From Candidatus Dojkabacteria bacterium (GTDB lineage Bacteria > Patescibacteriota > Dojkabacteria > GCA-002793355): 16,833 nucleotides of DNA. The notes under the pieces are model-generated. The model saw only the letters and a list, made by a program, of their open reading frames with translations, was not told the DNA's origin and searched no databases. The position numbers and the translations under genes were made by a program. Below, piece after piece: positions 1,972-15,871 of this stretch (its first letter is position 1; the number at the start of each line of letters is the position of its first letter). The stretch spans positions 1 through 16,833 of the forward strand of contig JALVLD010000021.1 in assembly GCA_027033525.1 (NCBI GenBank), given 5' to 3'.

Positions 1972-1980
1972 TGGTATAAT
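1972..1980 (+). promoter_or_regulatory. Extended -10 promoter before the ATP-grasp gene
   Basis: TGGTATAAT is a perfect extended -10 element. It ends 5 bases before the ATG at 1986, so transcription would begin at or beside the start codon. I see no clear -35 box; that region lies in the end of argS. An overlapping AAGGTGG at 1968-1974 resembles a Shine-Dalgarno sequence, 11 bases from the ATG, and could serve read-through mRNA from argS. Confidence 0.7.
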
Positions 1981-1985
1981 CCTAT

Positions 1986-2927
1986 ATGAATTTCTTAATT
2001 ATTGGTTTAAGGTCTGGCTACCATTTTGAGCGTTTGCAAGAAGAAGCTGAAAAAAGAGGGCATAAAGTGTTCGGCGCGTTGTCTAGTCAGCTTTATGCAA
2101 AATTTATACCAGGCAAAAAAGCAATATTTGGTATTAGAAAACTAGGAGTAAAACTTAGTGAGATTGATTTAATTTATACATGGACAATTTCGTATCCACG
2201 CAAGTGGGATTGGTTTGTGTTTCTTAAGTGGTATGTTGAGAAATATGGCGGAAAGGTTGTTTATAGCAAGTATGTAAATGATGCAACATGTGCAAATTTG
2301 TCGCCTGTATTAAATTATTGGAACGAACTTAAAAAGAGTGTTTTGCTTCCTCGCTCTTTGGCCTTTTATTCAGTAAACTCGATTAAAAAGGTCTTAAAAT
2401 TCTTTGATTTTCCTTTTATCGTGAAGATTTACAAAGAAGCCATGATGAGCCAAGGGCGTGGGGTGTTTTTAGTGCGTTCAAAAGAGGAATTGCGGCAAAT
2501 AGTAGAGAAATATCAGAAAGAGACAAGGCGTTTTATTGCACGTGAATATATTCCAAATAATGGAGATATCCGCGTTTTTGTAGTAGGGTATAAAGCAATA
2601 GCAGCTATGTATAGAATACCCAAAGAAGGGGAGTTCAGAAGCAACATTAGCCAAGGTGGTAGTGCAGAGCCAGTAGATCTAGAAAAAAATCAACAGCTTA
2701 AAGAAATAGCAGAAAAGGTAGCTAAAGCTACTGGAGTGGAAATCGCAGGAGTTGATATTATGTTGCATAAATATACAAAGACACCGTATGTTTTAGAAGT
2801 AAATCCAGGCCCGCAATTTAGAGGCATGGAAACATTAACAGGTGTAAATGTTGCAGAAAAGATCGTTAAATATTTTGAAAAATTAGTTGCACAAAAGAAG
2901 AAAACTGGGTTTCGGCTGTTTAAATAG
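1986..2927 (+). CDS. RimK/LysX-type ATP-grasp ligase
   Basis: This is an ATP-grasp enzyme of the RimK/LysX group, which joins a carboxylate to an amine through an acyl-phosphate. The 313-residue protein begins with a Rossmann-like pre-ATP-grasp half (about 1-115). The ATP-grasp fold follows: a nucleotide-binding lysine at 147, the glycine-containing loop SQGRGV at 155-160, E187, DIRVFVVG at 194-201, RSNISQGG at 218-225, GVDIM at 255-259, and the metal-binding EVNPGPQF at 271-278. All catalytic elements look intact. Known relatives add glutamate to ribosomal protein S6, cofactors or amino-group carrier proteins, but nothing here identifies the substrate. No carrier protein or lysine-biosynthesis gene is nearby. 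The DUF167 gene follows after 13 bases and is probably co-transcribed. Confidence 0.88.
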   Translation: MNFLIIGLRSGYHFERLQEEAEKRGHKVFGALSSQLYAKFIPGKKAIFGIRKLGVKLSEIDLIYTWTISYPRKWDWFVFLKWYVEKYGGKVVYSKYVNDATCANLSPVLNYWNELKKSVLLPRSLAFYSVNSIKKVLKFFDFPFIVKIYKEAMMSQGRGVFLVRSKEELRQIVEKYQKETRRFIAREYIPNNGDIRVFVVGYKAIAAMYRIPKEGEFRSNISQGGSAEPVDLEKNQQLKEIAEKVAKATGVEIAGVDIMLHKYTKTPYVLEVNPGPQFRGMETLTGVNVAEKIVKYFEKLVAQKKKTGFRLFK

Positions 2928-2940
2928 AGTTTAAATTGCC

Positions 2941-3207
2941 ATGTTTTTTGCTGTTTGCAAAGTAGTTCCTAATTCTAAAGTAAATAAAATACAAGAATTA
3001 CCGCTTAACAATCTACCTTCACAATTTAGTAAATGGAATCCCAAATATTTTCTAAAGGTACATTTAAAAGCTAAGCCCATAGAAGGCAAGGCAAATAAAA
3101 AATTAATTGATTTGCTAGCCCAAAGATTTAACGTAGGTTCTTCAGCAATTGAAATAACTACAGGACAAAAAGGCAGGTTGAAGGTGGTGAGGGTGAAAAA
3201 CAGTTAA
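2941..3207 (+). CDS. DUF167/YggU family protein
   Basis: This is a small 88-residue protein of the DUF167 (YggU, COG1872) family, whose biochemical role is not established. The family hallmarks are present: an N-terminal V-x-PNSK segment (residues 9-13), the central KAKPIEGKANKKLIDLLA stretch (about 44-61), and a C-terminal TGQKGRLKVVRV segment. Family members are usually 70-110 residues long, so this one is complete. An in-frame TAA at 2932-2934 blocks any upstream start. There is no Shine-Dalgarno sequence and only a poor -10-like TTTAAA at 2930-2935. It is therefore probably expressed from the ATP-grasp promoter. Confidence 0.88.
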   Translation: MFFAVCKVVPNSKVNKIQELPLNNLPSQFSKWNPKYFLKVHLKAKPIEGKANKKLIDLLAQRFNVGSSAIEITTGQKGRLKVVRVKNS

Positions 3208-3214
3208 GCATCCG

Positions 3215-3223
3215 TGATATAAT
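3215..3223 (+). promoter_or_regulatory. Extended -10 promoter before the 499-residue gene
   Basis: TGATATAAT is a perfect extended -10 element just after the DUF167 stop. Unlike the other promoters here, it lies 28 bases before the annotated ATG at 3252. It predicts a short leader of about 20 bases, which contains AAGG at 3234-3237. A second, weaker match, TGCTATAAG, lies at 3228-3236. Confidence 0.6.
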
Positions 3224-3251
3224 AAGATGCTATAAGGTAACAAACATTGCA

Positions 3252-4751
3252 ATGTTAGAGGATACGGCTGAGAAGCTAGCATTTTTATATCCGCAATCTC
3301 AAAGTTTGGGTACAGTAACTACACTAGCCCGAACTAACCCGTGGTATACTTCGGAAACGACCGGTGTGTTAAACCGGTTAAGTATCTTAAACGGTTGTGA
3401 TAGAGTAAATTGTAGTAACCAGGAGATTGCGTTAAGTCTGTATGATTACAGATTTGCATCAGTGAGTTCTCACCTTCTAGATGAGATAATTGCGGAGCGT
3501 GAAAACGATCCTAGAAGGAAAGGTTCGTTCTGGTATGAACGGATCTGGAGGACAAGAGGAGCGACCATTTATAGATGTGGCGAATCACGAAGAGCGATAA
3601 ATACATACAGTTTTGATTTTAGGGGAATAGATACCTTTGCTTTTACAGATGATGCAGAGCTCTTGTTCTATGTGCCGAATAAAGCCGCAATCATTGCAAC
3701 GGCTGGTTTGATGGATGCAGTAGGAGATCAGTTAGGAGGAAGTGACCAAGTTGGTAGTTCTTCTTTAAAGCCTGAGGAAGTTGATTTGCTTATTGCAGTA
3801 GCACGCCTTCAAAAACTGGCGAGTCTGGTGACTGAAAGTATTATTGTTGATGGGGAGAACGGTTGGAAAATTGAGGATTTCTCCGAGTTTAGCACTGTTC
3901 GTTTATTTTTGCACTCATTGATAAATGCGAGGCGTAGAATAAACCAACAAAATTGGCAAAAATACGGTCCTATTTTAGCTGAAGCATATTTGCAAATAAC
4001 AACCAAATTAAACGATGAACAAATTACACAATTAATGCAGGAATTTATGGAGCAGGTTTTTGCTCAAGGGACCGCTGTACCAAAAGAAACACCGCAAACG
4101 CCTGAAGATTCTTTGCAGTTTTCTTACGACTGGGCTAAATTGCGTGCTCGCTTCAAATTATATGAAAGGATTGGCTATATGGTAACAGCACTCAACTTAT
4201 TAGATGAAGTTAGAATGCGAGGTGTAGAAGAGTTGCCGAAAGAATTAAAACAAATAATGCCACATTTAACATTGGATGTATTTAAAGAGTTAGATGCATA
4301 TGCTGTTGCAAGGTTGGAAGAGGTGCAAAATGCTTCAATAACGCCTCCTACAGAGGCCCCTCAGAAAGCAGGTAGATTTGACAGAATAAAGGCTAAAGTA
4401 GGAAACAGACTAAGAATTCTTAGGGAGCGTGTAAGACGCAGACCAATTGGTGAAGGGGGAGATGAGTTATCGGGCTTAAAATCTCTAATGGACAGCTATT
4501 TAGCAGTTCAATCTGTAGATGAAATAAAGCAGCGTATTTATCTGTTTCGAGCCATGGCACTAATACGTAATGTATTTGATCATCAGCTAGAAGCATTGGG
4601 TAGGGAAATGGGGCAACGAATTCCATCGGTTAATGCGTTTTTTGGTAATGGGGAATTTATTGACCGCATTGCATGGTTTAACAGTCAGTTTGTACCGGTA
4701 CCTAACCCTAGTTACTTAGAAAAATTACGTGCAGCTTGGGGCGGCGACTAG
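3252..4751 (+). CDS. Unrecognised 499-residue soluble protein
   Basis: I do not recognise this protein. It has no signal peptide, no clear membrane segment and no catalytic motif that I can name. The N-terminal 150 residues are mixed, with a cysteine pair at 49 and 54 and an aromatic/arginine-rich stretch (about 94-125). From about residue 175 it becomes mostly helical in character. Two likely linkers break it up: PKETPQTPEDS at 277-287, and a proline-containing segment at 363-370 that leads into a strongly basic patch at 374-398 (RVRRRP at its end). The basic patch could contact nucleic acid, but that is only inference. The ATG at 3252 is the first plausible start after the promoter. It sits alone between the DUF167 gene and gatC, each with its own promoter. 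By eye its base composition is richer in G+C in places than gatA or gatB. Confidence 0.85.
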   Translation: MLEDTAEKLAFLYPQSQSLGTVTTLARTNPWYTSETTGVLNRLSILNGCDRVNCSNQEIALSLYDYRFASVSSHLLDEIIAERENDPRRKGSFWYERIWRTRGATIYRCGESRRAINTYSFDFRGIDTFAFTDDAELLFYVPNKAAIIATAGLMDAVGDQLGGSDQVGSSSLKPEEVDLLIAVARLQKLASLVTESIIVDGENGWKIEDFSEFSTVRLFLHSLINARRRINQQNWQKYGPILAEAYLQITTKLNDEQITQLMQEFMEQVFAQGTAVPKETPQTPEDSLQFSYDWAKLRARFKLYERIGYMVTALNLLDEVRMRGVEELPKELKQIMPHLTLDVFKELDAYAVARLEEVQNASITPPTEAPQKAGRFDRIKAKVGNRLRILRERVRRRPIGEGGDELSGLKSLMDSYLAVQSVDEIKQRIYLFRAMALIRNVFDHQLEALGREMGQRIPSVNAFFGNGEFIDRIAWFNSQFVPVPNPSYLEKLRAAWGGD

Positions 4752-4840
4752 TGCGGAAAAGTTTAGACTTGGACTATTGTGTTTAACGTTAAGTCGTTTG
4801 TGTAACTCCAGGTGCCCGCTTACATCTCTAATGCATAATA

Positions 4841-4869
4841 TTAACTCCCACCTAATTCCTTGCTATAAT
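4841..4869 (+). promoter_or_regulatory. Promoter of the gatCAB operon
   Basis: A -35 box TTAACT (4841-4846) lies 17 bases before an extended -10, TGCTATAAT (4861-4869; hexamer 4864-4869). The -10 ends 5 bases before the gatC ATG, predicting a leaderless transcript. This is the most complete promoter in the window. The 123-base gap upstream also holds a 10-bp palindrome, TTAACGTTAA (4783-4792), too far upstream to assign a role. Confidence 0.75.
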
Positions 4870-4874
4870 ACCCT

Positions 4875-5165
4875 ATGCAAGTTTCAGACAAATTAATTGA
4901 ACTTTTGGCAAAACTTTCAAAATTGCAGCTTTCAGATAAAGAAAGGGAATTATACGCCGCGCAGTTAAAAGAAATCATCAAATATATTTCAAAGATAAAA
5001 TCCTTTGATACAAAAGGTGCTAAGCCTGTGTATCATACAAATATTTCTGAGCTTGCACCTAGAGAAGATAAACAAGAAAATGCGCGAATGCTTTCAAAGA
5101 AAAAAGCACTTGCTAATGCAAAACGCGTGCAAGATGATCAATTTGTGGTAGATGCAATACTTTAA
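4875..5165 (+). CDS. gatC: Asp/Glu-tRNA amidotransferase subunit C
   Basis: GatC is the small subunit that wraps around GatA and holds the GatA-GatB interface in the GatCAB tRNA-dependent amidotransferase. The 96-residue length is typical. Recognisable features are LAKLSKLQLSDKE (residues 11-23), the helix continuing through IIKYISKIKSFDT, the conserved PVYH (46-49), LAPRED (56-61), and the C-terminal ALANAKRVQDDQFVV. The start is supported by the -10 box ending 5 bases upstream; no Shine-Dalgarno sequence is present. It is the first gene of the operon, with gatA starting 15 bases after its stop. Confidence 0.94.
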   Translation: MQVSDKLIELLAKLSKLQLSDKERELYAAQLKEIIKYISKIKSFDTKGAKPVYHTNISELAPREDKQENARMLSKKKALANAKRVQDDQFVVDAIL

Positions 5166-5180
5166 ATAAAAATAATTATT

Positions 5181-6617
5181 ATGCAAAATTGGGATTTAAA
5201 AACAATTTTAGCTAAATTAGATAAAGGTGAGATATCTTCCACAGAGTTAGTGCAATATTATTTAGATCGCATAAAAAAAACAGACGTGAAACTAAATAGT
5301 TTCATAAGCTTAAGACCCAAAGAAGAGATTTTAAAAGAAGCAAAAGAAGCTGATAAACAGCGAGCCAGTGGTAAAGTTAGAAAATTAACCGGAGTCCCCA
5401 TAGGTTTAAAAGATAATTTTTTAGCAGAAGGGACACGTACAACAGCCGCAAGTAAAGTATTAGACAATTTTGTAGCACCATACGATGCAACTGCAGTTGC
5501 TCGTTTAAAAAACGAAGGTGCGATTATTATTGGCAAGTTAAATATGGATGCATGGGCGCATGGCTCAAGTGGTGAAAATAGTGATTATGGTCCTACGCGC
5601 AATCCATGGCATTTGGATTATACTCCTGGTGGTAGTTCTAGTGGGCCTGCAACTGCAATTGCTGCAGATTTAGTGCCTATTGCAACAGGTACAGATACTG
5701 GTGGTTCTATTAGGCTGCCTGCAGCCTTTACAGGCGTTGTGGGAATAAAACCAACTTATGGACGGGTTTCCAGATATGGCACAGTTGCTATGGCAAGTTC
5801 AACCGATTCTATTGGGCATTTTTCTAAAACAGTTTGGGATAATGCTTATATTTTAAGCATTACAGCTGGACACGATAAATATGATGCTACTACAAGCAAA
5901 GTAGAAGTACCACCTTATCATGAGTTATTAGATAAGTTAGATCCAAAAGATTTAAAGGTTGGCATAGTTAAGGAATTTTTTGACGAAAATATTATAGATT
6001 CAGTTGTGCTTGCAAAAACAGAACAAGCAATAAAAGAGCTTGAGAAGAAAGGCGCTACAATAAAAACAGTTTCAATAAAAAATATAGAGCGGGGACTTGA
6101 GCTTTATTATATTTTAATGAGTGCAGAAGTAGCTTCTAACTTAGCAAGATACGATGGCATCCGTTATGGTAACGATAGAACTTATTTTGGCCAAGAAGCT
6201 AAAAGGCGCATTATGTTGGGAACTTATGTGCTTTCGGATGTTATTCCGGGTAAAGGTTTAGAAACCACATATGCTAAAGTTGCTATGGCTCGTGGTTATT
6301 TGCAACAAGAATTTAAAAAAGCATTTAAAGAAGTTGACGTATTACTTACTCCAGTATCACCAACCCTACCATTTAAATTAGGTTCAAAAACAGGAGATCC
6401 CTTACAAATGTATATGTCGGACTTACTTACAGTTACATTTAGTATTGTCGGAGTGCCAGGTTTAGTTGTTCCTATTGGTACTGCTACAAATAAAGAAAAT
6501 GTTAAATTACCAGTGGGAATTCAGATAATTGGGCCTAATTTTTCTGAAACACTTTTATACCAAGTAGGCAAACTTTTAGAAAAACCAGAAATTTTAAATG
6601 AAATAAATCTAACATAA
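5181..6617 (+). CDS. gatA: Asp/Glu-tRNA amidotransferase subunit A
   Basis: GatA is the amidase subunit. It releases ammonia from glutamine and passes it to GatB, which amidates misacylated Glu-tRNA(Gln) and/or Asp-tRNA(Asn). The 478-residue protein has the complete amidase-signature core. The catalytic triad is Lys77 (in GVPIGLKDN), Ser152 (in TPGGSSSGP) and nucleophile Ser176 (in TDTGGSIR). The 24-residue spacing between the two serines matches characterised GatA. The block VVGIKPTYGRVSRYG (187-201) is the classic glutaminase/amidase consensus. One variation is SSSGP where most GatA have SSGGS. No Shine-Dalgarno sequence or -10 box lies in the 15-base gap after gatC, so it depends on the gatC promoter. 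Confidence 0.97.
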   Translation: MQNWDLKTILAKLDKGEISSTELVQYYLDRIKKTDVKLNSFISLRPKEEILKEAKEADKQRASGKVRKLTGVPIGLKDNFLAEGTRTTAASKVLDNFVAPYDATAVARLKNEGAIIIGKLNMDAWAHGSSGENSDYGPTRNPWHLDYTPGGSSSGPATAIAADLVPIATGTDTGGSIRLPAAFTGVVGIKPTYGRVSRYGTVAMASSTDSIGHFSKTVWDNAYILSITAGHDKYDATTSKVEVPPYHELLDKLDPKDLKVGIVKEFFDENIIDSVVLAKTEQAIKELEKKGATIKTVSIKNIERGLELYYILMSAEVASNLARYDGIRYGNDRTYFGQEAKRRIMLGTYVLSDVIPGKGLETTYAKVAMARGYLQQEFKKAFKEVDVLLTPVSPTLPFKLGSKTGDPLQMYMSDLLTVTFSIVGVPGLVVPIGTATNKENVKLPVGIQIIGPNFSETLLYQVGKLLEKPEILNEINLT

Positions 6618-6622
6618 GGTTT

Positions 6623-7954
6623 ATGACTGCAGTTTTTGATGTTAAAAAACTAAAAGAAAAATATGAGTTAGTTTTAGGATTTGAGGTGCATGTAGAGCTT
6701 AGAACACAAAGCAAAATGTTTTGCGAATGTCCAGCTTGGCATTTTGAAGTAGAACCAAATACTAATGTATGCCCGGTGTGTTTAGGGCTTCCAGGTGCTT
6801 TGCCTGTACCTAACAAACAAGCTTTAGAATGGACAATTTTACTTGCAAGTGCTTTAAATTGCAAAATAAATAAATATCAACAATTTGATAGAAAGCATTA
6901 TTTTTATCCAGATTTGCCCAAAGGCTATCAAATAACTCAATTTTATTTCCCAGCTGGTGAACATGGTTATTTAGAAATAGATGGCGAGAAAATTAGAATA
7001 AGAAGAGTACACTTAGAAGAAGATACGGGCAAGTTAATACATAAAGATGGAGTTTCTATGGTTAATTTTAATCGTTCTGGAGTACCTCTTATAGAAATAG
7101 TTACAGAACCAGATTTTAAAACCCCAGAACAAGCAAAAGCATTTTTAAAAATGTTGCATTTAATAGTTAGATATCTTGGTATTTCTGACGCAGATTTAGA
7201 AAAAGGCAGCATGCGTTTGGAACCCAATATTTCTGTAAGACTCAAAGGTGAGACTAAGTTACCAGATTACAAAGTAGAAGTTAAAAATATTAATTCATTT
7301 AATTTTGCAGTTAAAGCAATAGAATATGAATTTATTCGCCAAGCTAAATTGCTTGAGCAAGGAATTACACCTGAGCAAGAAACCAGAGGTTTTGATCCGG
7401 CTTCCGGTAAAACAAGGGCTCAACGTCGCAAAGAAGTTGCAACCGATTATAGATATTTACCAGATCCAGATATACCGCCAATTAAGTTTACAGACGAAGA
7501 GATTAGTAAAATTATTGCAGACAGGCCAGAATTACCATATGAGCGACTTGTAAGATATTTAAACATGAGGATTCGCAAAGATGCTGCAATGTTTTTAATT
7601 TTTAATAAACAAATTGCAGATGGTTTTGATAAGCTAATTAGCAAAGAAAAAGGACTCGATGCAAATAAGTTTGCTGTATTTTTATCTAATGTACCAGAAA
7701 CTAAACGTAATAAATCAGTAGAAGAGCTTTTGGCAGAATTTAAAGCTAAAACCCAAAAAGATACTTTAGATAAAGCAACAGTTACTAAGTTAGTAGCTGA
7801 AGTTATGGCCGAAAATCCAAAAGCAGTAGATGATTATAAAAAAGGCAAGCAAAATGCTATTCAGTTTTTACTCGGCCAGTTTATGCGAAAAATTAGAAGA
7901 CGTGTTGAAGTAGGCCCTATTGTTGAGGAGTTTAGAAAACAACTAAGTAAATAG
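6623..7954 (+). CDS. gatB: Asp/Glu-tRNA amidotransferase subunit B
   Basis: GatB binds the misacylated tRNA and carries out the ATP-dependent activation and amidation. It has an N-terminal cradle with GFEVHVEL near residue 19, an intact zinc site (C34, C36, C52, C55, in CEC and CPVC), HLEEDTGK, and FNRSGVPLIEIVTEPD. A YqeY-like C-terminal tail follows (about 295-443). At 443 residues it is shorter than the usual 470-480. Two conserved blocks differ: the usual RCDANVS reads MRLEPNIS, and the tail's MKxTxGKAxP segment reads MRKIRRRVEVGPI. Both look like lineage drift rather than damage, because the rest is well conserved. It starts 5 bases after gatA; AAGG at 6616-6619 is too close to the ATG to be a normal Shine-Dalgarno sequence. 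Confidence 0.96.
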   Translation: MTAVFDVKKLKEKYELVLGFEVHVELRTQSKMFCECPAWHFEVEPNTNVCPVCLGLPGALPVPNKQALEWTILLASALNCKINKYQQFDRKHYFYPDLPKGYQITQFYFPAGEHGYLEIDGEKIRIRRVHLEEDTGKLIHKDGVSMVNFNRSGVPLIEIVTEPDFKTPEQAKAFLKMLHLIVRYLGISDADLEKGSMRLEPNISVRLKGETKLPDYKVEVKNINSFNFAVKAIEYEFIRQAKLLEQGITPEQETRGFDPASGKTRAQRRKEVATDYRYLPDPDIPPIKFTDEEISKIIADRPELPYERLVRYLNMRIRKDAAMFLIFNKQIADGFDKLISKEKGLDANKFAVFLSNVPETKRNKSVEELLAEFKAKTQKDTLDKATVTKLVAEVMAENPKAVDDYKKGKQNAIQFLLGQFMRKIRRRVEVGPIVEEFRKQLSK

Positions 7955-7966
7955 CCCTGAGGTTTA

Positions 7967-7995
7967 CCTGTACATGTTTGGTGAAGGTGTACAGG
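7967..7995. promoter_or_regulatory. Inverted repeat between gatB and the 396-residue gene
   Basis: Perfect 8-bp arms, CCTGTACA (7967-7974) and TGTACAGG (7988-7995), flank a 13-base loop. It begins 12 bases after the gatB stop and reaches the -35 position of the next promoter. There is no T-run after it, so it is not a standard intrinsic terminator. It could be an operator or an mRNA 3'-end structure. Confidence 0.5.
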
Positions 7996-8014
7996 CGTTG
8001 GGAGTAAGGCAATG

Positions 8015-8020
8015 TATAAT
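8015..8020 (+). promoter_or_regulatory. -10 box before the 396-residue gene
   Basis: A perfect TATAAT, directly preceded by TG, ends 5 bases before the ATG at 8026. The five spacer bases are all T. No clear -35 box is visible; the right arm of the inverted repeat 7967-7995 covers that position. Confidence 0.65.
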
Positions 8021-8025
8021 TTTTT

Positions 8026-9216
8026 ATGGGACAAGTTGGCCACCAGCCAAGTTTCTTTGAAATAGAGTCAGATAAGCCATTAAATAAGCCAGATTGTCTT
8101 ACTAGGGCCCGCCGTGATCTACTAAGTTTGCTTCCCAGTTTTTATCGTCATATTGCTGAAATGGTATTAGAAGGTACATGGTTTAAGAAGTCCGAACAAG
8201 AGCAGGAAGATGGTGAAGAAAATCCTGTTAAGCAAGCTTTAACCGACGTAATTACTGAAGGTTCCACAAATCGTTTTGTTTTTTGGGTAAGTCGAACAGT
8301 TTCTCCTATTCCGGGTAGAAGGCGTAGGGGAAGCAAAGAGTATAAGGAAGGGGGAGGGGCATTAGAGGGGAATAGAGTTGTGCGTTTTGTCGGCAGTAGG
8401 GAACAATGGCTATTTACTGCTTGGAATGCAGGATATTATCTGTATAAAATACTTCAAGGAGAAGTAGATGGTTGTAAATGCGGGGAAGATTGCCAGAAAA
8501 TAAAGAATGAGCGCGATCAATTAAGACTCCCTTATGAGTATGCGATTTCGCAACTAGCAGACGCTCTTGTCTGGCGTTATGGTACAGAAGTTCATAAAGA
8601 TTTTAACCTTTGGGAAAGAATAATATTCCCTTTACAATTCCCGATTATTAGGCCTGAGATATTAAGCTTTATTGGTTTTGTAGGAGCTAGGGGAAGTGTT
8701 TATTTGTTTCCTAGAATTTTTGAGATGGCTGGAGGTATACCTGTAGATAAAAAAGATTGGCGAGAGCAAGGGCGAGAATATCTGAAAGCATTACGAAATT
8801 ATACGAAAGCACGTATTAATTATTTTTTTAAGTCTAGAGAACCAGCCCGAGGTGTTCCTTTTCCCGATGTTTCAGTAGAGGCCGTAGAGTTTAAAGGCCC
8901 ATATTTACCAATTACAGCTATTCCTTTACTGGAAACTTGGCTAGGCTACTGTATTGTTACTACTAATTGGCCTGTTGTTGCAGATAAGGTTGCCCCCTTT
9001 GGTTTAATGAAAAACTTATTAGTTATTGCAGCAACTTCTAACAGCACATGGCTTTTGGATATAGTTAAGGATTGGGAAGAGCGAGTTACTTTAATGCAGG
9101 CAGAGCAAGGAGATGAAATAACAGCTAGTATTTTAGCGGAGATGAAGTGTATCTTAGAAGGAGTAAGACCCTTTGGCCAGTTCGATGATTTATCTCTTAG
9201 TGAGGTAGAGTGGTAA
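8026..9216 (+). CDS. Unrecognised 396-residue protein
   Basis: I do not recognise this protein. It has no signal peptide. Visible features are an acidic stretch (about 56-66), a basic patch GRRRRG at 97-102 followed by a glycine-rich segment, and a small cysteine cluster C150, C152, C156 that could bind a metal. A tryptophan/aromatic-rich hydrophobic region lies in the middle, though nothing is long enough to call a membrane helix with confidence. The start is fixed by the -10 box 5 bases upstream. The final Trp codon and the TAA stop lie inside a 16-bp palindrome (9212-9227), so the C-terminus may have been set by whatever placed that palindrome. Some 60-base lines exceed 50% G+C (8341-8400: 31 of 60 by my count), against 25-35% in two lines I counted in gatA and gatB. 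Confidence 0.83.
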   Translation: MGQVGHQPSFFEIESDKPLNKPDCLTRARRDLLSLLPSFYRHIAEMVLEGTWFKKSEQEQEDGEENPVKQALTDVITEGSTNRFVFWVSRTVSPIPGRRRRGSKEYKEGGGALEGNRVVRFVGSREQWLFTAWNAGYYLYKILQGEVDGCKCGEDCQKIKNERDQLRLPYEYAISQLADALVWRYGTEVHKDFNLWERIIFPLQFPIIRPEILSFIGFVGARGSVYLFPRIFEMAGGIPVDKKDWREQGREYLKALRNYTKARINYFFKSREPARGVPFPDVSVEAVEFKGPYLPITAIPLLETWLGYCIVTTNWPVVADKVAPFGLMKNLLVIAATSNSTWLLDIVKDWEERVTLMQAEQGDEITASILAEMKCILEGVRPFGQFDDLSLSEVEW

Positions 9217-9227: not shown

Positions 9228-9243
9228 AAAAATATTATAAAAT

Positions 9244-9259
9244 GGTAAATGTATTTACC
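9244..9259. promoter_or_regulatory. Operator-like 16-bp palindrome, copy 2
   Basis: GGTAAATGTATTTACC differs from copy 1 by one central base. Its right half, TTTACC (9254-9259), is also the best -35 candidate for the ATPase promoter. A protein bound here should therefore block RNA polymerase. Confidence 0.7.
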
Positions 9260-9283
9260 GATCTGGGAATCTTATGTTATAAT
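9254..9283 (+). promoter_or_regulatory. Promoter of the ATPase gene
   Basis: The -35-like TTTACC (9254-9259) is followed 18 bases later by an extended -10, TGTTATAAT (9275-9283). The -10 ends 6 bases before an in-frame ATG at 9290. This makes 9290 the likely start rather than the ATG at 9242, which lies upstream of the promoter. Confidence 0.7.
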
Positions 9284-9289
9284 TTAGAT

Positions 9290-10555
9290 ATGTTTAATAA
9301 ATCCTTCTTAAAAACAATTATTTTAGATCAGCATCAAACTTATAAATTGCCTAAAAACTATATAAGGCGAGATTTGCAGGAAACATTGCTTAAGGCAACA
9401 CATAAAGAGACAATAATAATTACAGGATTAAGACGTGTTGGGAAATCTACACTTTTATTGGCTTTAAAACAGCACCTAGGGGGGAAATATTTTATAAATT
9501 TTGACGATGAACGTTTAATAGATTTTAAGGCTTCAGATTTTCAAGTCCTTTTAGAGGTTTTTTTAGAACTTTTTGGAGATCAAAACATTTTTTATTTTGA
9601 TGAAATTCAAAATATCAAGGGCTGGGAGCGCTTTGTACGACGTTTATATGATATGGGTAAACGTATAATTATTACAGGTTCAAACGCCAATTTATTATCT
9701 TTAGAGCTAGGCACACATTTAACTGGCCGTTACATACCTTATGAATTATTTCCATTATCATTTAAAGAATTTTTAAGGGCTAGGAAGAAAGAATTTAATG
9801 TTAATTTTATAACCACAAAAGAAAAAGTAGAGTTGCTAAAAGAATTTCAAAAATATCTTACATATGGAGGTATTCCACAGTATGTATTATCAAAAGAACC
9901 TTTATTTTTACAGCAATTAGTACAGGATGTGGTGTTTCGTGATGTGATTCGCAGATATGCTATAAAAAAGATAGACTCTCTTGATAGATTAGTAAAATAT
10001 GCTTTTTCTAACTTTAGCAGATTAATCAGCGTTAGGCGTATAGCCCCTATAATAGGGGTTGGAGGGCATCCTACAGTATCTTCTTATTTAAAATATTTAG
10101 AGCAGGCATATTTATTGTTTACTATTCCTAAATATGCCTACTCAGTAAAAAATCAATATCTTGCTCCTAAGAAGTTATATGTAATAGATTTAGCCTTAGC
10201 AAAGTATTATGGATTTAGTTTTTCTGAAAATATAGGGCATATGTTAGAGAATTTAGTATTTTTGCAACTAAGAAGAAATGCAAGATTGGGGGATATTTTT
10301 TATTTTTCTAACAACTTATACGAATGTGATTTTATTGTCCAAGAAAAAGGTCAAATTGCCCATATAATACAAGTAACTCAAGGTTTAAATGAAGATAATA
10401 AAAAGCGAGAAGTGAGAGGACTTATTAAAGCTATGAAGTATTTTGGAGTTAAGAAAGGTACTATTATTACCTTTGGGGGGGAAGAAACCATAAAAGAGGA
10501 TAATTTTATTATAGAAGTTGTACCAATTTATAAGTGGCTATTGGCAAATAGTTAG
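9290..10555 (+). CDS. COG1373-type ATPase (AAA plus DUF4143)
   Basis: This is a predicted ATPase of the widespread COG1373 group, with an AAA domain followed by DUF4143; its cellular role is not settled. I choose the ATG at 9290 (421 residues) because a promoter ends 6 bases before it; the longer frame from 9242 would start upstream of that promoter. Counting from 9290, Walker A is GLRRVGKST at 46-54, Walker B is FYFDE at 101-105, and the sensor-like TGSNA is at 129-133. TYGGIPQYV (191-199) is the usual link towards DUF4143. The C-terminal third carries ECDFIV and, 12 residues on, IIQVTQ. This resembles a restriction-endonuclease-like fold core, but with Q where a catalytic E/D-x-K is expected, so nuclease activity is doubtful. 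Twin palindromes at its promoter suggest dedicated, possibly autogenous, repression. Confidence 0.9.
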   Translation: MFNKSFLKTIILDQHQTYKLPKNYIRRDLQETLLKATHKETIIITGLRRVGKSTLLLALKQHLGGKYFINFDDERLIDFKASDFQVLLEVFLELFGDQNIFYFDEIQNIKGWERFVRRLYDMGKRIIITGSNANLLSLELGTHLTGRYIPYELFPLSFKEFLRARKKEFNVNFITTKEKVELLKEFQKYLTYGGIPQYVLSKEPLFLQQLVQDVVFRDVIRRYAIKKIDSLDRLVKYAFSNFSRLISVRRIAPIIGVGGHPTVSSYLKYLEQAYLLFTIPKYAYSVKNQYLAPKKLYVIDLALAKYYGFSFSENIGHMLENLVFLQLRRNARLGDIFYFSNNLYECDFIVQEKGQIAHIIQVTQGLNEDNKKREVRGLIKAMKYFGVKKGTIITFGGEETIKEDNFIIEVVPIYKWLLANS

Positions 10556-10590
10556 AAAATAGACAGAAGGTTTTAAAATTTTTTAGAAGC

Positions 10591-10596
10591 TATAAT
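10591..10596 (+). promoter_or_regulatory. -10 box before the Memo-like gene
   Basis: A perfect TATAAT ends 5 bases before the ATG at 10602, predicting a leaderless transcript. It is preceded by AGC rather than TGn, and no convincing -35 box is visible in the AT-rich sequence upstream. Confidence 0.62.
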
Positions 10597-10601
10597 ATTA
10601 T

Positions 10602-11444
10602 ATGAGGCAGCCAGCCGTTGCAGGAAGTTTTTATCCTGCAGATAAAGAAGAGCTTGTAGCATTAGTAGATGGTTTTATAAAAAATGGTTGCAGTAAGTTT
10701 CCGCAATTGTTTATACATCCACGCATTTTTGTAGCACCACATGCAGGGTATATGTATTCTGGACCAGTTGCAGGATATACTTATTGTGCGTTAAAGCGTA
10801 TGCATACTAGTTACAATCGTTTTATTATTTTAGCTCCAGCACATACTGTATATTTAGAAGGCATTGCTTTAGACGTAAATAACAAATGGCATACCCCCAT
10901 GGGTATAGTTAAGGCTGACTTTGTACTAGTTAAAGAGTTGCTAAATTTAGCTTTTGCAGTTCAATCTGGTGAGGCTCATGTAAAGGAACATGCAATTGAA
11001 GTTCAATTACCTTTTTTGCAATATTTATATAAAAATAAATTTAGTTTTGCTCCAGTAGTTATTGGAGACTTAACAATTGAAAAGATTCACATGCTGGCAA
11101 AAACCCTTGTTGATATTTTGCAAAAATACAAAGATGTTGCAATTATAGTAAGTTCAGATTTATCTCATTATTTACCTTATGATATTGCCAAAGTAGTTGA
11201 TAATAATACTATTAGATTGGTAGAAGATTGTGTAAACAATGGCAGCTTGAATATGAACTGTGAGTTCATATTACCAGAGCAGGCATGTGGTGCTATGGGA
11301 ATAAATACAGTTATGTTAGTTGCAAGAAAATTAAAGTATAAAGCTAAGTTGCTGCAATATCTAAATTCTGGCGATACTGCTGGAGATAAAGCTGCTGTTG
11401 TAGGTTATGCAAGTATAGTTATGGGGGAAGATGTTGCGGTTTAA
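10602..11444 (+). CDS. amrB: Memo-like protein, AmmeMemoRadiSam protein B
   Basis: This is a member of the MEMO1/AmmeMemoRadiSam B family, related in fold to non-haem-iron dioxygenases of the LigB type. The 280-residue length is typical. The N-terminal RQPAVAGSFYP block is diagnostic. Putative metal-site residues are conserved: H47 (in APHAGYMYSG), H81 (in LAPAHT), H189 (in SSDLSHY) and C229 (in EQACGAMG); H130 lies in EHAIEVQLPFLQ. The C-terminal GDTAGDKAAVVGYAS is also characteristic. Human MEMO1 has been reported to bind copper or iron; the bacterial reaction is unknown to me. It starts its own transcript and is followed 48 bases later by AMMECR1, with which the family habitually co-occurs. 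Confidence 0.93.
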   Translation: MRQPAVAGSFYPADKEELVALVDGFIKNGCSKFPQLFIHPRIFVAPHAGYMYSGPVAGYTYCALKRMHTSYNRFIILAPAHTVYLEGIALDVNNKWHTPMGIVKADFVLVKELLNLAFAVQSGEAHVKEHAIEVQLPFLQYLYKNKFSFAPVVIGDLTIEKIHMLAKTLVDILQKYKDVAIIVSSDLSHYLPYDIAKVVDNNTIRLVEDCVNNGSLNMNCEFILPEQACGAMGINTVMLVARKLKYKAKLLQYLNSGDTAGDKAAVVGYASIVMGEDVAV

Positions 11445-11456
11445 TTGGCGAATAGA

Positions 11457-11470
11457 TACCCTATGGGGTA
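11457..11470 (+). other. Small hairpin between the Memo-like and AMMECR1 genes
   Basis: TACCC (11457-11461) and GGGTA (11466-11470) flank a TATG loop, 12 bases after the Memo-like stop. There is no T-run, so it is not an intrinsic terminator. It may be an mRNA stabiliser or chance. Confidence 0.3.
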
Positions 11471-11492
11471 CATAAAATAAAACAAAGACGAC

Positions 11493-12086
11493 ATGAAAAT
11501 GCCAAAAACAATAAAAATTTCTAAAATAGCAGGAGACTTTTTAGTTAAAGTGTCTAGAATGGCTTTAGAGAAATATTTTGAAACTGGAAAGCCATTAACT
11601 TTAAATCAGCTTGATTTACCACAAGATATTAAACCTGAATTATTAAGAAAACAAGCAAGTTTTGTAACTTTAAAAAAGCATGGCAATTTAAGAGGATGTA
11701 TTGGACATTTAGAACCAATTATGCCACTTATAGAAGATGTAATAGCTAATAGTTATGCAGCAGCATTTAATGATCCACGATTTTATCCACTTTTGCCAAA
11801 TGAATTGTCTGAAATACAAATTGAAGTTTCGGTTTTAAGCCCCAAGGTCTCTGTAAATTTTAGTTCTGCAAAAGAATTATTAGAGTTTTTAAATAAATAT
11901 AAACCAGGGGTAGTATTAAGTTTGTATGGAAGGCAAGCCACATTTTTACCACAAGTATGGGAGAAGCTACCTAACGAACAGGAATTTTTAGCCCATTTAT
12001 GTTTAAAAGCAGGCCATGATATTAATTGCTGGCAAAATCCACAAACTAAATTTGAAATATATACAGTTCAGGATTTTCATGAGTAA
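11493..12086 (+). CDS. amrA: AMMECR1-domain protein, AmmeMemoRadiSam protein A
   Basis: This is an AMMECR1-family protein, 197 residues, the usual length. The signature LRGCIGH is at residues 66-72, and DPRFYPLLPNEL (94-105) and IEVSVLSP (110-117) follow. The C-terminal FLPQVWEKLP and HLCLKAGHD segments complete the family pattern. The invariant cysteine C69 in RGCIG is present. The molecular function is not established; the family travels with the Memo-like protein and a radical SAM enzyme, both encoded here. A second ATG at 11499 is possible. No Shine-Dalgarno sequence is present. A weak TAAAAT at 11473-11478 could be a private promoter, but co-transcription with the Memo-like gene across 48 bases is more likely. 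It converges with the radical SAM gene, leaving 69 bases between stops. Confidence 0.93.
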   Translation: MKMPKTIKISKIAGDFLVKVSRMALEKYFETGKPLTLNQLDLPQDIKPELLRKQASFVTLKKHGNLRGCIGHLEPIMPLIEDVIANSYAAAFNDPRFYPLLPNELSEIQIEVSVLSPKVSVNFSSAKELLEFLNKYKPGVVLSLYGRQATFLPQVWEKLPNEQEFLAHLCLKAGHDINCWQNPQTKFEIYTVQDFHE

Positions 12087-12155
12087 CGCTACGAGGTTCT
12101 TCCAAGAAAGGATCTGTTCCAAGAATGGCAAGAAAGCGGCGGGGTAGCTATTTAT

Positions 12156-13193
12156 CTATAAAAATCTTCCAGCAATTTTAGTGTTGCATTTATTACATTT
12201 GCCGTTTTTGAGTCCAATAATTTGAGTATTGTAACCAGTTCGTTTAATAAGTAAATTACCGCAATTTGGACAATATGTATTAGTGTATTTTTCATACTCA
12301 TTGTTTGCAGGAATATTGCCAATATAAACATAATTTAATCCTACTTTTTTACCAATCTCATAAGCTTTTATTAAAGTTTCAATTGGAGTTGGTGGAACAT
12401 CTAACATTTTATAAGCTGGGAAAAAGCGTGAAATATGCCATGGTATATCTACAGAAATAGAGCTTACAAATTTAGCAATTTGTTCTAGTTCTTTGCTAGA
12501 GTCATTATAGCCAGGAATAACTAGAGTGGTTATTTCAATCCATACACCGTGTTTGTAAAGATACTTGATATTTTCTAGTACAGGCTTTAAACGTGCACCT
12601 ATGATTTTTAAGTAAAATTCATCACTAAAGCTTTTTAAATCTATGTTTGCTGCATCTAAAATTTGAGTAAGAAGTTTTGCTGTGCGTTTACTATAATAGC
12701 CATTTGAAACATAAACATTTTTTATTCCGTTTTTTTTAGCTAGTTTGGCTGTGTCATAGGTATACTCAAAATAAACGGTAGGTTCATTATAAGTATAAGC
12801 TATAAAATTTATATGTTTTTCTTTTGCAATGTTTACAATTTTTTCTGGCGGAAGATTATCTAAATGTTTTATAACAGCTTCAGCATCTATAAAATGTTGT
12901 ACTTGGGAAATATCATAATTTTGGCAAAATAAACATTTAAAATTACATCCAATAGTACCTACAGATAGAATTGGCTTGCCAGGATAAAAGTGATAAAGAG
13001 GTTTTTTTTCCATTGGATCTATGTGTAAAAATCCGTAGCCATAAGGTATTAAATAAAGCGTGCCATTTATGTTCTTACGTATACCGCAAATTCCTGTTTT
13101 ACCCGGAGCAATAACACATTGATGTGCACAAGCTTTGCAACGCACGAGCTTGTTGTCTAAAGTTTCTACAAGCTCTTTTAATGCTTTGTGCAT
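12156..13193 (-). CDS. amrS: Radical SAM enzyme of the AmmeMemoRadiSam system
   Basis: This is a radical SAM protein of the AmmeMemoRadiSam type, in the neighbourhood of pyruvate formate-lyase activating enzymes. The 345-residue protein has an N-terminal cysteine cluster (C19, C22, C26, C36, ending GICGIR). The 4Fe-4S/SAM motif CNFKCLFC follows, with C83, C87 and C90. A C-terminal zinc-ribbon-like module has C308, C311, C333 and C336 and ends GRFL. This layout is characteristic of the family. A glycyl-radical partner is not encoded here, and the substrate is unknown. The start is fixed by a TATAAT box 5 bases upstream on the - strand. It lies tail to tail with AMMECR1, so the three-gene system is split into two convergent transcripts instead of one operon. 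Confidence 0.93.
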   Translation of the reverse strand: MHKALKELVETLDNKLVRCKACAHQCVIAPGKTGICGIRKNINGTLYLIPYGYGFLHIDPMEKKPLYHFYPGKPILSVGTIGCNFKCLFCQNYDISQVQHFIDAEAVIKHLDNLPPEKIVNIAKEKHINFIAYTYNEPTVYFEYTYDTAKLAKKNGIKNVYVSNGYYSKRTAKLLTQILDAANIDLKSFSDEFYLKIIGARLKPVLENIKYLYKHGVWIEITTLVIPGYNDSSKELEQIAKFVSSISVDIPWHISRFFPAYKMLDVPPTPIETLIKAYEIGKKVGLNYVYIGNIPANNEYEKYTNTYCPNCGNLLIKRTGYNTQIIGLKNGKCNKCNTKIAGRFL

Positions 13194-13198
13194 ATAAG

Positions 13199-13204
13199 AT
13201 TATA
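13199..13204 (-). promoter_or_regulatory. -10 box before the radical SAM gene
   Basis: On the - strand a perfect TATAAT ends 5 bases before the ATG at 13193. No extended TG and no convincing -35 box are visible. The 66-base gap to the MFS gene is enough for an independent promoter. Confidence 0.6.
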
Positions 13205-13259
13205 TAACAGTATAAAGGAGGGTAGTAAGTTGTGTCGAGTGCGTACGGATCTGTGCGTG

Positions 13260-14534
13260 CTATTTTTCTATTTTTTTATTTTTAAATCTTGTTGCAATTA
13301 AAATAAAACTTAAAGAAATAAATATAAGAGGCAAGCCAAACTGTACGGCGATAAGATTTTTATCTGCGAGGTAGCCAACAAGTGGGTTTAGAAGGCCAAT
13401 GGTGAGATATCGCAGTAAAGAGGAAAAGCTATTTACAGTCGCCCTAATTTCAGAAGGGATCAACTCTTGCATATCTTTGAATAGGTAACCGCGTGCATTT
13501 TTAAATAGGAGTGAACCTAAACTCATAATTAATGCAGAGATCACGACGTGACGGGTAAGGATCCATACAAAGAACCCACCTATGAGTAAAAAGTAGGCTA
13601 GTGTTTGATTTACAATAATAAGTTTTAAGGCTTTCCATTTTTTATATAGAAAAGGCCATACAGAGTTTAGCAGCAGCTCCAGTACATTTTTTATAATTTC
13701 CAAGCCTGCGAACATGGCAGTTGGTAAGCCGATGGTTGCAAATAGAGATTGCAAAGTCCAAAACCCGGACCAATATGCAGTTAGCGAGAGTAGTACTCCA
13801 AGTACTACATAAAAAACAAGTTGGGGCTGACGCTTAAATAACGAGAGACTCTGTTTGATTATTCCTAAGTAATCTGGCACAAATTCTTCCTTGCCTTTAA
13901 CGCGGGGCTCTGGAATTTTAAGGTAAACAAGAACCTCTAAACCTAAAAATATTATAGATGCAAACAGTGTGAATCGTATAGATATGAGTTTTACTAAATA
14001 CATGCCAAGTAAATTAGACACGAAGAAACCGATAATATTAATATTGTCTGAGAAGGCAACAAAAAAATTTGTATATTTTTCATAGCCTAACGTTTTTAAG
14101 GTATCGTAAAATAAAGCTTCGTCCGCACCGCTGTATAAAGCTTGGCCAATTCCCATCAATATTTCTGCTAGTACGAAGGCAGTAAAACTATGGCCGACAA
14201 AATAACTAAGGGTGCCTATACCAAAGGCAAGATTGCCTAGGATTAAACTTAACCGTTTTCCATATTTATCAGCAATAACTCCTGTAGGGATTTCGGCAAT
14301 TACAGAAACAAGCATAAATATACTTTGTAACAGCAGTATTTGAGCATTGTTTAAATGATTTTGTTTATAGAATGGCATTATAAATGGCATAAATAGCATT
14401 CCAAATGAGCCTAAAAACCAAATAATTGCAAACCATTTTAAAGTAGAGGGAGCGGTTTTTAGCTTGGCAAAAGCCTTGCAAGTCTTCGCAATAAACCTGC
14501 TAAGTTTATTTTTAATAGATTTTATACGTTGCAT
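13260..14534 (-). CDS. MFS transporter
   Basis: This is a major facilitator superfamily membrane transporter of 424 residues, long enough for the usual 12 helices. About 30 basic residues precede the first helix (about 34-56). The loop between helices 2 and 3 carries the MFS signature as GVIADKYGKR (85-94). A segment after helix 4, SGADEALFYDTL (135-146), is typical of a group of poorly characterised drug- or sugar-efflux-like MFS proteins. Hydrophobic segments continue to about residue 415, followed by a short basic tail. The substrate cannot be read from sequence. An extended -10 box 5 bases upstream supports the start. The gene is divergent from proS and sits 66 bases before the radical SAM gene on the same strand, but that gene has its own promoter. 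Confidence 0.92.
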   Translation of the reverse strand: MQRIKSIKNKLSRFIAKTCKAFAKLKTAPSTLKWFAIIWFLGSFGMLFMPFIMPFYKQNHLNNAQILLLQSIFMLVSVIAEIPTGVIADKYGKRLSLILGNLAFGIGTLSYFVGHSFTAFVLAEILMGIGQALYSGADEALFYDTLKTLGYEKYTNFFVAFSDNINIIGFFVSNLLGMYLVKLISIRFTLFASIIFLGLEVLVYLKIPEPRVKGKEEFVPDYLGIIKQSLSLFKRQPQLVFYVVLGVLLSLTAYWSGFWTLQSLFATIGLPTAMFAGLEIIKNVLELLLNSVWPFLYKKWKALKLIIVNQTLAYFLLIGGFFVWILTRHVVISALIMSLGSLLFKNARGYLFKDMQELIPSEIRATVNSFSSLLRYLTIGLLNPLVGYLADKNLIAVQFGLPLIFISLSFILIATRFKNKKIEK

Positions 14535-14539
14535 TGGGG

Positions 14540-14548
14540 ATTATAGCA
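14540..14548 (-). promoter_or_regulatory. Extended -10 promoter of the MFS gene
   Basis: On the - strand TGCTATAAT ends 5 bases before the ATG at 14534. It is identical to the -10 of the divergent proS promoter, and the two lie back to back within 89 bases. No clear -35 box is visible. Confidence 0.72.
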
Positions 14549-14609
14549 TTTAGGGATGGGGACAGTGGAGGTGAAGTGCAGTGCGTATTCTTTAAAAACG
14601 CCGTCGCTA

Positions 14610-14618
14610 TGCTATAAT
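14610..14618 (+). promoter_or_regulatory. Extended -10 promoter of proS
   Basis: TGCTATAAT ends 5 bases before the proS ATG at 14624. A weak -35-like TTTAAA lies at 14591-14596, with a 16-base spacer. Confidence 0.72.
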
Positions 14619-14623
14619 TTTTC

Positions 14624-15871
14624 ATGTCTATATTTTTTGCAACCAAATTTTTTATAAAAACCACAAAAGATATTAGCGATAAAGAAGTTTCACGAAATGC
14701 CCGACTTTTGCGAAAAGCTGGATACATTTTTAAAAATTTGGCAGGAGTTTATACCTTTTTACCAATAGGACTTAGAGTTCTTAGGAAAATTGAAAACATT
14801 GTTAGAGGTGAAATGTTAAAAATTGGTGCAATTGAATTTAAATCTAATACTTTACAAGCACCAGATATTTGGAAAGCTTCCAACCGTTGGGATGATAATG
14901 TAGTAGACGTATGGTTTAAAACTAAGCTTAAGAATGGGCAGAAATTAGGTTTAGCATTTACTCACGAAGAAATGTATACAGACCTTTTAAAACACTTTGT
15001 TAAAAGCTATAAAGATCTGCCAATTATACTTTTTGATATTCGTGATATGTTTAGGAACGAACCACGCGCTAAAAGTGGACTGTTGCGTGGGCGGGAATTT
15101 TACTGGAAAGCTGCTTATTCATTTGCAGAAAATCCGGATGATCACAATAAGATATATGAAGAACTAAAAAATGCATACTTGCGAATTATGGACAAATTAG
15201 GCATAGGGGATTTTACTTATTTAACTTTTGCATCAGGGGGAACATTTTCAAAATACTCACATGAATTTCAAACAGTATGTAAGGTTGGTGAGGATGATAT
15301 TTATTTAGATGAAGATAAAAAACTTGCTATAAATAGCGAAGTATTTACCGAGCAAACATTAAAAGATTTGGGTTTAAATAAAGCTAATTTAAAACACGTA
15401 AAAGCAGTAGAGGTAGGAAATATATTTACATTAGGCACAAAATTTCCTAAAGCATTAAATTTAAAAATAGCTAGTGCTAGCGGAAGTGAAACCTTTGCAT
15501 ATATGGGATCCTACGGCATTGGTATTTCCCGCATTATGGGAATTATTGCAGAAAAATTTGCAGATAAAAATGGACTTATTTGGCCTAAAAATATTGCTCC
15601 ATTTACTGTAGAAATAGTGCCATTAGTAGAATATTCAAAATTTTTGCAAAATGTTTTACAAACACTTACAAAATTAAACATGGATATTTTAGTAGACGAT
15701 AGACCAGTTAGTGCAGGGCGCAAATTAGTAGATTCTGATTTACTGGGCATTCCATACAGAATTGTTATTTCAGAAAGGCTTATTAAGTCAAACAAAGTAG
15801 AGGTTAAACAGAGGGCAACTGGCAAGATAATAGAAGTTACACTTTCTAGTTTGCCTAAAGTCATTAAGTAA
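14624..15871 (+). CDS. proS: Prolyl-tRNA synthetase without editing insertion
   Basis: This is a class II synthetase that charges tRNA-Pro. Motif 1 is around PIGLRVLRKIE (47-57). Motif 2 includes FRNEPRAKSGLLRGREF (143-159), and motif 3 is GSYGIGISRIMG (295-306). The THEE loop (113-116) and an anticodon-binding domain (about 328-415) are present. Bacterial ProRS is normally about 570 residues, with an editing domain (INS) of about 180 between motifs 2 and 3. Here only about 15 residues join SHEF...AINSEV (212-240) to VEVGNIFTLGTKF (262-274), so INS is absent. The common MKDAYSF after motif 2 reads WKAAYSF (161-167), losing an aspartate. Short forms without INS are known in other bacteria. The start is set by the -10 box 5 bases upstream. 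Confidence 0.95.
   Translation: MSIFFATKFFIKTTKDISDKEVSRNARLLRKAGYIFKNLAGVYTFLPIGLRVLRKIENIVRGEMLKIGAIEFKSNTLQAPDIWKASNRWDDNVVDVWFKTKLKNGQKLGLAFTHEEMYTDLLKHFVKSYKDLPIILFDIRDMFRNEPRAKSGLLRGREFYWKAAYSFAENPDDHNKIYEELKNAYLRIMDKLGIGDFTYLTFASGGTFSKYSHEFQTVCKVGEDDIYLDEDKKLAINSEVFTEQTLKDLGLNKANLKHVKAVEVGNIFTLGTKFPKALNLKIASASGSETFAYMGSYGIGISRIMGIIAEKFADKNGLIWPKNIAPFTVEIVPLVEYSKFLQNVLQTLTKLNMDILVDDRPVSAGRKLVDSDLLGIPYRIVISERLIKSNKVEVKQRATGKIIEVTLSSLPKVIK

Follow-up and report, generated by a model that had tools for sequence, protein, structure and literature searches.

Candidate promoters at the locus

The stretch of DNA analyzed here (the window) is contig JALVLD010000021.1 (C21 of the draft), 16,833 nt in length, from the genome of a Candidatus Dojkabacteria bacterium. 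The draft, designated G000 below, comprises 866 kb in 194 contigs, is 88.55% complete and belongs to the class Dojkabacteria (WS6, Patescibacteria). Eight genes in the window are preceded by the hexamer TATAAT, which ends five or six bases 5' of the ATG, and these hexamers are discussed as candidate -10 elements of promoters for leaderless mRNAs. The number of bases between hexamer and ATG is termed the gap. The boxes, with the genes they precede, are as follows.

1975..1980, + strand: TATAAT (candidate -10 element) with TGG on its 5' side; gap 5 to the ATG at 1986 of an ATP-grasp (RimK-like) gene
1986..2927, + strand: ATP-grasp gene (PF08443), predicted leaderless
4864..4869, + strand: TATAAT with TGC on its 5' side; gap 5 to the gatC ATG at 4875
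4875..5165, + strand: gatC (PF02686), predicted leaderless, first gene in gatC-gatA-gatB
8015..8020, + strand: TATAAT; gap 5 to the ATG at 8026 of a gene for a 396-aa protein without a Pfam match
9278..9283, + strand: TATAAT with TGT on its 5' side; gap 6 to an in-frame ATG at 9290 of an AAA_14/DUF4143 ATPase gene
10591..10596, + strand: TATAAT; gap 5 to the ATG at 10602 of a Memo-like gene
13199..13204, - strand: TATAAT; gap 5 to a radical SAM gene (12156-13193)
14540..14545, - strand: TATAAT with TGC on its 5' side; gap 5 to an MFS gene (13260-14534), divergent from the proS promoter
14613..14618, + strand: TATAAT with TGC on its 5' side; gap 5 to the ATG at 14624 of a 415-aa prolyl-tRNA-synthetase-like gene (14624-15871)

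The initial annotation of this DNA had listed these eight hexamers and had described five of them (ATP-grasp, gatC, ATPase, MFS and proS) as extended TGnTATAAT; the upstream sequences confirm the positions and strands, the extended form at all five, and a gap of 5 at every gene except the ATPase, where it is 6. The bases 5' of the three boxes without TGn (396-aa gene, Memo-like and radical SAM) are ATG, AGC and TTA. The name proS is taken from the same annotation, and Pfam places the class II core and anticodon domains in the 415-aa product. TATAAT as such occurs about as often in the window as expected (35 occurrences vs 33.3 from shuffling), so the signal lies in its placement. Of the 14 starts in the count of an ad hoc gene finder (inclusion of the 88-aa DUF167 protein makes 15 genes), seven carry an exact box at gap 5, with P = 4.5e-18, or 1.4e-16 when 31 gaps are allowed for, and the earlier assertion that the fixed spacing is beyond chance is thus upheld.

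Genome-wide distribution of the gap

The distance from TATAAT to ATG, for which the initial annotation had proposed a sharp genome-wide peak, does peak at gaps 5 and 6. In the whole of G000, with no gene calling, TATAAT-N5-ATG occurs 79 times vs 15 for the reversed pattern. Raw counts in a sample of 241,595 bases of this genome were 7, 10, 35, 12, 12, 6 and 6 at gaps 3-9, gaps 10-30 averaging 5.7, and no gap peak was seen in the raw counts of this sample for GTG, TTG, ATA or ATC. The 148 starts called by the ad hoc gene finder on 220,514 bases of G000 include 17 with an exact box at gap 5, six at gap 6 (23 together), two at gap 7 and one at gap 8, and every gap from 0 to 30 other than 5 and 6 has at most two. 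An exact box at gap 5 or 6 was found at none of 844 internal in-frame ATGs of this genome. The picture was unchanged under two further rules for choosing starts (three in all). The sample is enriched for matches, 16 of its 20 stretches being contigs already listed with TATAAT-N5-ATG; with the window removed, 28 instances remain at gap 5 and 0-12 at each of the remaining gaps. In contigs off the match list (44,481 bases), gap 5 has none by construction, and gaps 6 and 7 have one and four. The pattern is real, strong and genome-wide.

Operon position, flanking bases and the +1 base

Genes were classed as leading when the neighbor is not codirectional or lies more than 60 bp away. In G000 an exact box at gap 4-7 was found at 22 of 90 leading genes, at one of 13 genes lying 26-60 bp from a codirectional neighbor and at two of 45 within 25 bp of one (leading vs internal, p = 0.004). 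The same direction, in weaker form, was seen for these three classes in two other genomes of the family, G286 (8/80, 0/12 and 2/37) and G254 (3/92, 0/5 and 0/24). Within the window, the DUF167 gene, gatA (5181) and gatB (6623) follow the gene before them after 13, 15 and 5 bases; neither gatA nor gatB has a TATAAT, and of 4-mers resembling a Shine-Dalgarno (SD) site gatA has none and gatB just AAGG, 3 bases 5' of its ATG.

The bases around the boxes also resemble those of promoters. In an alignment of 65 instances at gap 5, drawn from three family genomes, position -5 counted from TATAAT was T at a frequency of 0.60 and position -2 was G at 0.49, vs 0.36 and 0.35 at 77 TATAATs lying at control gaps, and strict TGn was present in 17/65 vs 9/77. 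TRTGn is the name given to the extended -10 of sigma70 promoters. Sequences with at least 5/6 matches to TTGACA at spacers of 15-19 precede eight of the 65 instances (1.7 expected). A pyrimidine stands directly 5' of the ATG in 68/79 G000 matches vs 405/773 internal ATGs (p = 2e-9); at control gaps this holds for 35/77 instances. In 73 named loci of other Patescibacteria, described below, the corresponding figures were 49/58 at gap 6 and 22/39 at gap 7. This bias toward a pyrimidine before the A suggests the trace expected from selection of the A of ATG as start site.

Shine-Dalgarno sites and the translation machinery

The initial annotation had also held good SD sites to be almost absent, and the counts agree: the 398 starts of the family show no enrichment of SD 4-mers (38 proximal and 71 distal, with 30 and 43 for the complement control). 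Nor does G297, a genome of the same class (17 proximal, 18 distal). Identical code found 104 proximal vs 18 distal before 77 Firmicutes starts, and 277 vs 126 before 890 starts in the 73 named loci. As to the 3' end of the 16S rRNA, to which the initial annotation had pointed, its own assembly gives no answer, the gene being absent from it, and the answer comes from relatives. A search of the family genomes left two without a match (G000 included) and G288 with fragments only, and all five full-length 16S genes carry ACCTCCTT in the 3' end region, the anti-SD with its CCUCC core. Since the sequence is kept in these five relatives, SD scarcity probably does not stem from a lost anti-SD, and loss or change of it as a cause is ruled out for the relatives read.

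Loss of bS21, IF3 or S1 as a cause was considered as well and is ruled out by presence. bS21 was found in 7/8 family genomes at E <= 0.001 (six over the cut-off), IF3 in 6/8 and an S1-like gene in 8/8, and all three are present in G000. The curated rpsA cut-off was passed by none of 85 genomes of the class, and the S1-like gene of G000 falls short of it, with 271.7 bits across model positions 4-348. With the anti-SD, bS21, IF3 and the S1-like gene kept, these parts of the translation machinery seem ordinary, and what stands out is the position of the promoter.

Two side observations concern the same subjects. In the 3' flanks of the five 16S genes (L131-L135), an SD-like complement lies a few bases past the anti-SD (e.g. 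CCTCC-TTAC-GGAGG), and pairing of the two could give the 16S precursor a hairpin that might sequester the anti-SD; similar precursor hairpins exist in Firmicutes that use SD sites. In the window, a TATAAT at 3218-3223 lies 28 nt 5' of the ATG of a 499-aa gene, whose sole SD-like 4-mer is an AAGG 13 bases 5' of the ATG. The mRNA of this gene is possibly leadered without a good SD site, and another mode of initiation may exist too.

Conservation within the family

The family to which the genome belongs, f1, has eight members including G000, G286, G288, G254 and G291, and all eight show an excess of TATAAT-N5-ATG over the reversed pattern (79/15, 72/32, 67/6, 76/10, 63/12, 64/15, 65/19 and 68/13). 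Conservation at individual genes was followed through reciprocal best pairs, mainly with G291, the nearest relative sampled. Where the G000 gene has a leaderless-type box (n = 16), the partner was also boxed in seven pairs and at the same start in five; where it has none (n = 26), the partner was boxed in four and at the same start in none (5/16 vs 0/26, p = 0.005). The gap in the five same-start pairs, which include the Memo-like and radical SAM genes, was unchanged or had moved by one. The Memo-like gene has a reciprocal best match in G291 that is 45% identical and carries TATAAT at the same gap and start, and the match of the radical SAM gene, 71% identical, has TATAAT 6 nt 5' of the aligned start. 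A whole-genome search for relatives of proS and the radical SAM gene added little to this comparison: the best match of proS was 47% identical (G288) and the rest 21-29%, and the radical SAM gene had one good match (G291, 72%).

Share of genes and spread beyond the family

A strict share was defined as the excess of TA-like boxes at gaps 4-8 over background, per leading genes. It amounts to 27% in G000, 22% in G291, 18% in G286 and 17% in G254, and also to 17% in G309, of family f134. Elsewhere it was 3-18% in seven other members of the class, 6-15% in four genomes of other classes and 10% in the 73 named loci. G246, from another family of the class, has 18%, which overlaps the f1 range of 17-27%. 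A relaxed, start-flexible count gave 35/90 in G000 (7 expected), 25/80 in G286 (4.5) and 27/92 in G254 (4.3), or 25-31% of the leading genes of the family after background; for comparison, it gave 8/79 in G297 (3.5 expected) and 0/41 in Firmicutes. Expectation-maximization fits to the leading genes of three family genomes returned 42-46%, a figure that serves as a loose upper bound only, as the fits drifted to other motifs on several subsets. Detectable leaderless promoters thus account for about 17-31% of leading genes, and the view of the initial annotation that leaderless initiation is the main mode is not supported by these estimates (strict, relaxed or fitted). One class member, G202 (L223-L227), has about 20% GC and 33 genes called in 100 kb, and its genetic code or gene calls may be off.

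A survey of the TATAAT-N5-ATG pattern found two of 286 genomes of the phylum with at least 30 matches at no less than 3x control, both in f1. In the class, eight of 85 genomes reached these values, namely seven of the eight members of f1 and G309, with G286 falling short at 72 vs 32. The survey gauges the one-base-shorter variant of the arrangement and not leaderless genes in general. In the 73 named loci (L031-L110 minus six Firmicutes and L090; Patescibacteria whose titles mostly name Microgenomates), a weaker peak lies at gap 6-7, where the N5 pattern cannot detect it, and SD use is moderate. Exclusivity of the arrangement to one family was dropped for this reason; leaderless-type placement is not confined to f1.

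What sets the family apart is the gap itself. Raw counts at gap 5 and gap 6 were 35/12 in G000, 22/9 in G291, 10/8 in G286 and 12/5 in G254, giving 79 : 34 for the four f1 genomes vs 22 : 58 for the 73 named loci (p = 7e-9). Without G000, whose sample was partly chosen for gap 5, the ratio was 44 : 22 vs 22 : 58 (p = 3e-6). Other members of the class gave 11/8 (G309), 8/9 (G308) and 4/8 (G246). The f1 box is shifted one base closer to the ATG than in the named loci.

Interpretation and alternatives

The boxes are very probably the -10 elements of sigma70-type promoters from which transcription would begin at the A of the start codon, to give leaderless mRNA. The leaderless promoters put forward in the initial annotation are supported in this by the gap peak, the promoter-like flanks and the operon position, and leaderless mRNA is very likely. 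RNA polymerase would recognize (T-R-)T-G-n-TATAAT with a -35 that is weak at most, melt the 5-6 bases beyond the box and initiate at the A of ATG, this being the first suitable purine with a pyrimidine on its 5' side. The 5' end of the mRNA would then be the AUG, with no leader and no SD site, and this 5'-terminal AUG may be bound directly by the ribosome, presumably as 70S. In other bacteria, a leaderless AUG is bound by the 70S ribosome, or by the 30S subunit with IF2 and fMet-tRNA. Genes downstream in operons, which have no box, would probably be reached by coupling from the preceding gene.

Several observations weigh against this interpretation or qualify it. Textbook spacing from the -10 to +1 could put +1 on the U of AUG at gap 5. 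The longest open reading frame of the ATPase begins at 9242 and encloses the box, and the ATG at 9290 is a later in-frame and hence assumed start; it is probably the true one, in which case the promoter would correct the start call. The feature is absent at seven of the 15 window genes (argS, DUF167, the 499-aa gene, gatA, gatB, AMMECR1 and nudix). A gap of 5 is 1-2 nt below the 6-7 bp given for Deinococcus (PMC12340547). In the pairs with G291, the difference is weak when any start is admitted (7/16 vs 4/26, p = 0.07). With the more distant G286 and G254, none of the five and four pairs with a box in G000 had one at the same start; when any start is admitted, a box was present in 1/5 and 0/4 of these pairs vs 5/19 and 3/22 of the others, and one of the 22 other pairs with G254 had a box at the same start. 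Among 22 fresh gap-5 instances from G291, T at -5 fell to 0.41, with G at -2 at 0.59 and strict TGn in 7/22, and the base before the ATG was a pyrimidine in 15/22 at gap 5 and 4/9 at gap 6. The -35-like sequences are modest and do not discriminate, as they also precede six of 77 control TATAATs (2.2 expected). Shares computed from the G000 sample may run high, as match-bearing contigs were favored, though the counts of 79 and 15 are whole-genome and unbiased.

Of the alternatives, that which survives best holds that the promoters are real but produce leaders of 1-5 nt or starts scattered around the AUG, so that the RNA would be only partly translatable. Gaps ranging from 5 to 8, the textbook spacing, which places +1 one base beyond the A at gap 5, and the weak pyrimidine preference at gap 6 in G291 (4/9) are in its favor. 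It is nevertheless unlikely, since the preference for a pyrimidine before the A is strong among G000 matches (68/79) and at gap 6 in the named loci (49/58), which suggests that +1 is the A. A second alternative reads the box in RNA, as an A/U-rich landing element for the ribosome or protein S1, with transcription starting further upstream. The genome keeps an S1-like gene and lacks SD enrichment, and S1 sites have been raised as an alternative explanation for AT bias near -10 (PMC5397173). Operon-internal genes would also need a ribosome site, yet the box is found at two of 45; furthermore, the TRTGn-like flank and the step from pyrimidine to A are promoter features, and the spacing is fixed within one or two bases, all of which makes this reading very improbable. 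Chance in AT-rich DNA, or bias in the calling of gene starts, can be dismissed even though TATAAT occurs at chance frequency in the window, given the p of about 1e-16 there, the 79 vs 15 obtained without gene calling, the same peak under three start rules and the lack of a peak with the same code in same-class G297 or Firmicutes.

If transcription does begin at the A of ATG, the polymerase of f1 may start nearer to the -10, or accept the sixth base as +1. A broader scenario can be offered only tentatively: in f1, and perhaps in f134 (one genome), SD initiation has been given up for leading genes, promoters have become the main start signal, and an RNA polymerase with a shortened distance from the -10 to +1, starting at the sixth and not the seventh or eighth base, has been accompanied by a genome-wide move of the box. 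If this were true, the sigma or polymerase residues that set start-site choice would have co-evolved with the placement of many promoters. As related clades differ by one base in this spacing, comparing them offers a way to test how RNA polymerase selects its start site, and a clade with anti-SD, bS21, IF3 and an S1-like gene but without SD enrichment is a natural test of the role of the anti-SD when mRNAs are leaderless. Patescibacteria make up a large part of bacterial diversity. In practical terms, the promoter can serve to call gene starts in these genomes, and leaderless designs deserve consideration in expression tools for Patescibacteria.

Other genes of the window

Two proteins of the window, of 499 aa (3252-4751) and 396 aa (8026-9216), have no Pfam match. 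The 415-aa synthetase has a good match solely in G288 (47%). A second synthetase-like frame of G000 (C169:3011-3469), 24% identical over the anticodon-binding part, adjoins bS21, and this arrangement is also found in G286, G287, G288, G254 and G291. The GatA of the window is up to 51% identical to loci titled Roizmanbacteria, Levyibacteriota or 'bacterium' vs 43% to CP129477.1 (Dojkabacteria cMAG.19), which speaks against the placement in Dojkabacteria, a placement based on genome kinship.

Comparison with known systems

Genomes of the Bacteroidetes type lack SD sites and have an anti-SD that is conserved but unused, being occluded by bS21/bS18. The Dojkabacteria family is similar in that the anti-SD is kept (in five relatives) and SD sites are not used; as regards occlusion, the comparison covers the presence of bS21. 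GeneMarkS-2 reportedly has a model for leaderless bacteria with a promoter box in place of the ribosome-binding site (RBS). Mycobacterial genomes with leaderless mRNAs also use SD sites, whereas the Dojkabacteria family has no SD enrichment. Leaderless transcripts are a large class in mycobacteria (PMC3898074, PMC4633059).

Zheng 2011 (PMC3160421) took a TA-like signal about 10 bp 5' of the start as evidence of leaderless genes and gave averages of 19.2% for Actinobacteria and 39.4% for Deinococcus-Thermus. The boxes described here are a TA-like signal of the same kind, and the part of its table consulted has no row for candidate phyla. No paper on leaderless mRNAs in Patescibacteria was found among the matches covered, which come from open-access text. 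In papers on the candidate phyla radiation, Patescibacteria or Saccharibacteria, the passages seen with the word 'leaderless' concern the factor YchF or titles in reference lists only, and those combining 'Patescibacteria' with 'transcription start sites' are on other subjects, judging by title and beginning of the abstract. A term search did not find 'promoter' in an expression study on Patescibacteria (PMC9868632), nor 'Patescibacteria' in a survey of 16S and SD sequences (PMC10783764).

The closest parallel is Deinococcus-Thermus, where a -10 hexamer directly 5' of the start codon is the promoter for leaderless mRNA at about 30% of open reading frames on average, in a survey of complete genomes that left out unclear and symbiotic species (PMC12340547). 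The Dojkabacteria box has the same position directly 5' of the start codon. In Deinococcus-Thermus the hexamer is TANNNT at about 6-7 bp and other genes have RBS motifs (PMC12340547), whereas the Dojkabacteria family has TATAAT with a TRTGn-like flank, a mode of 5 bp and no detectable RBS class. Overall, leaderless initiation of this kind is known; its occurrence in Dojkabacteria and the lack of a detectable SD class mark out the present variant, and the one-base-shorter spacing is the new element.

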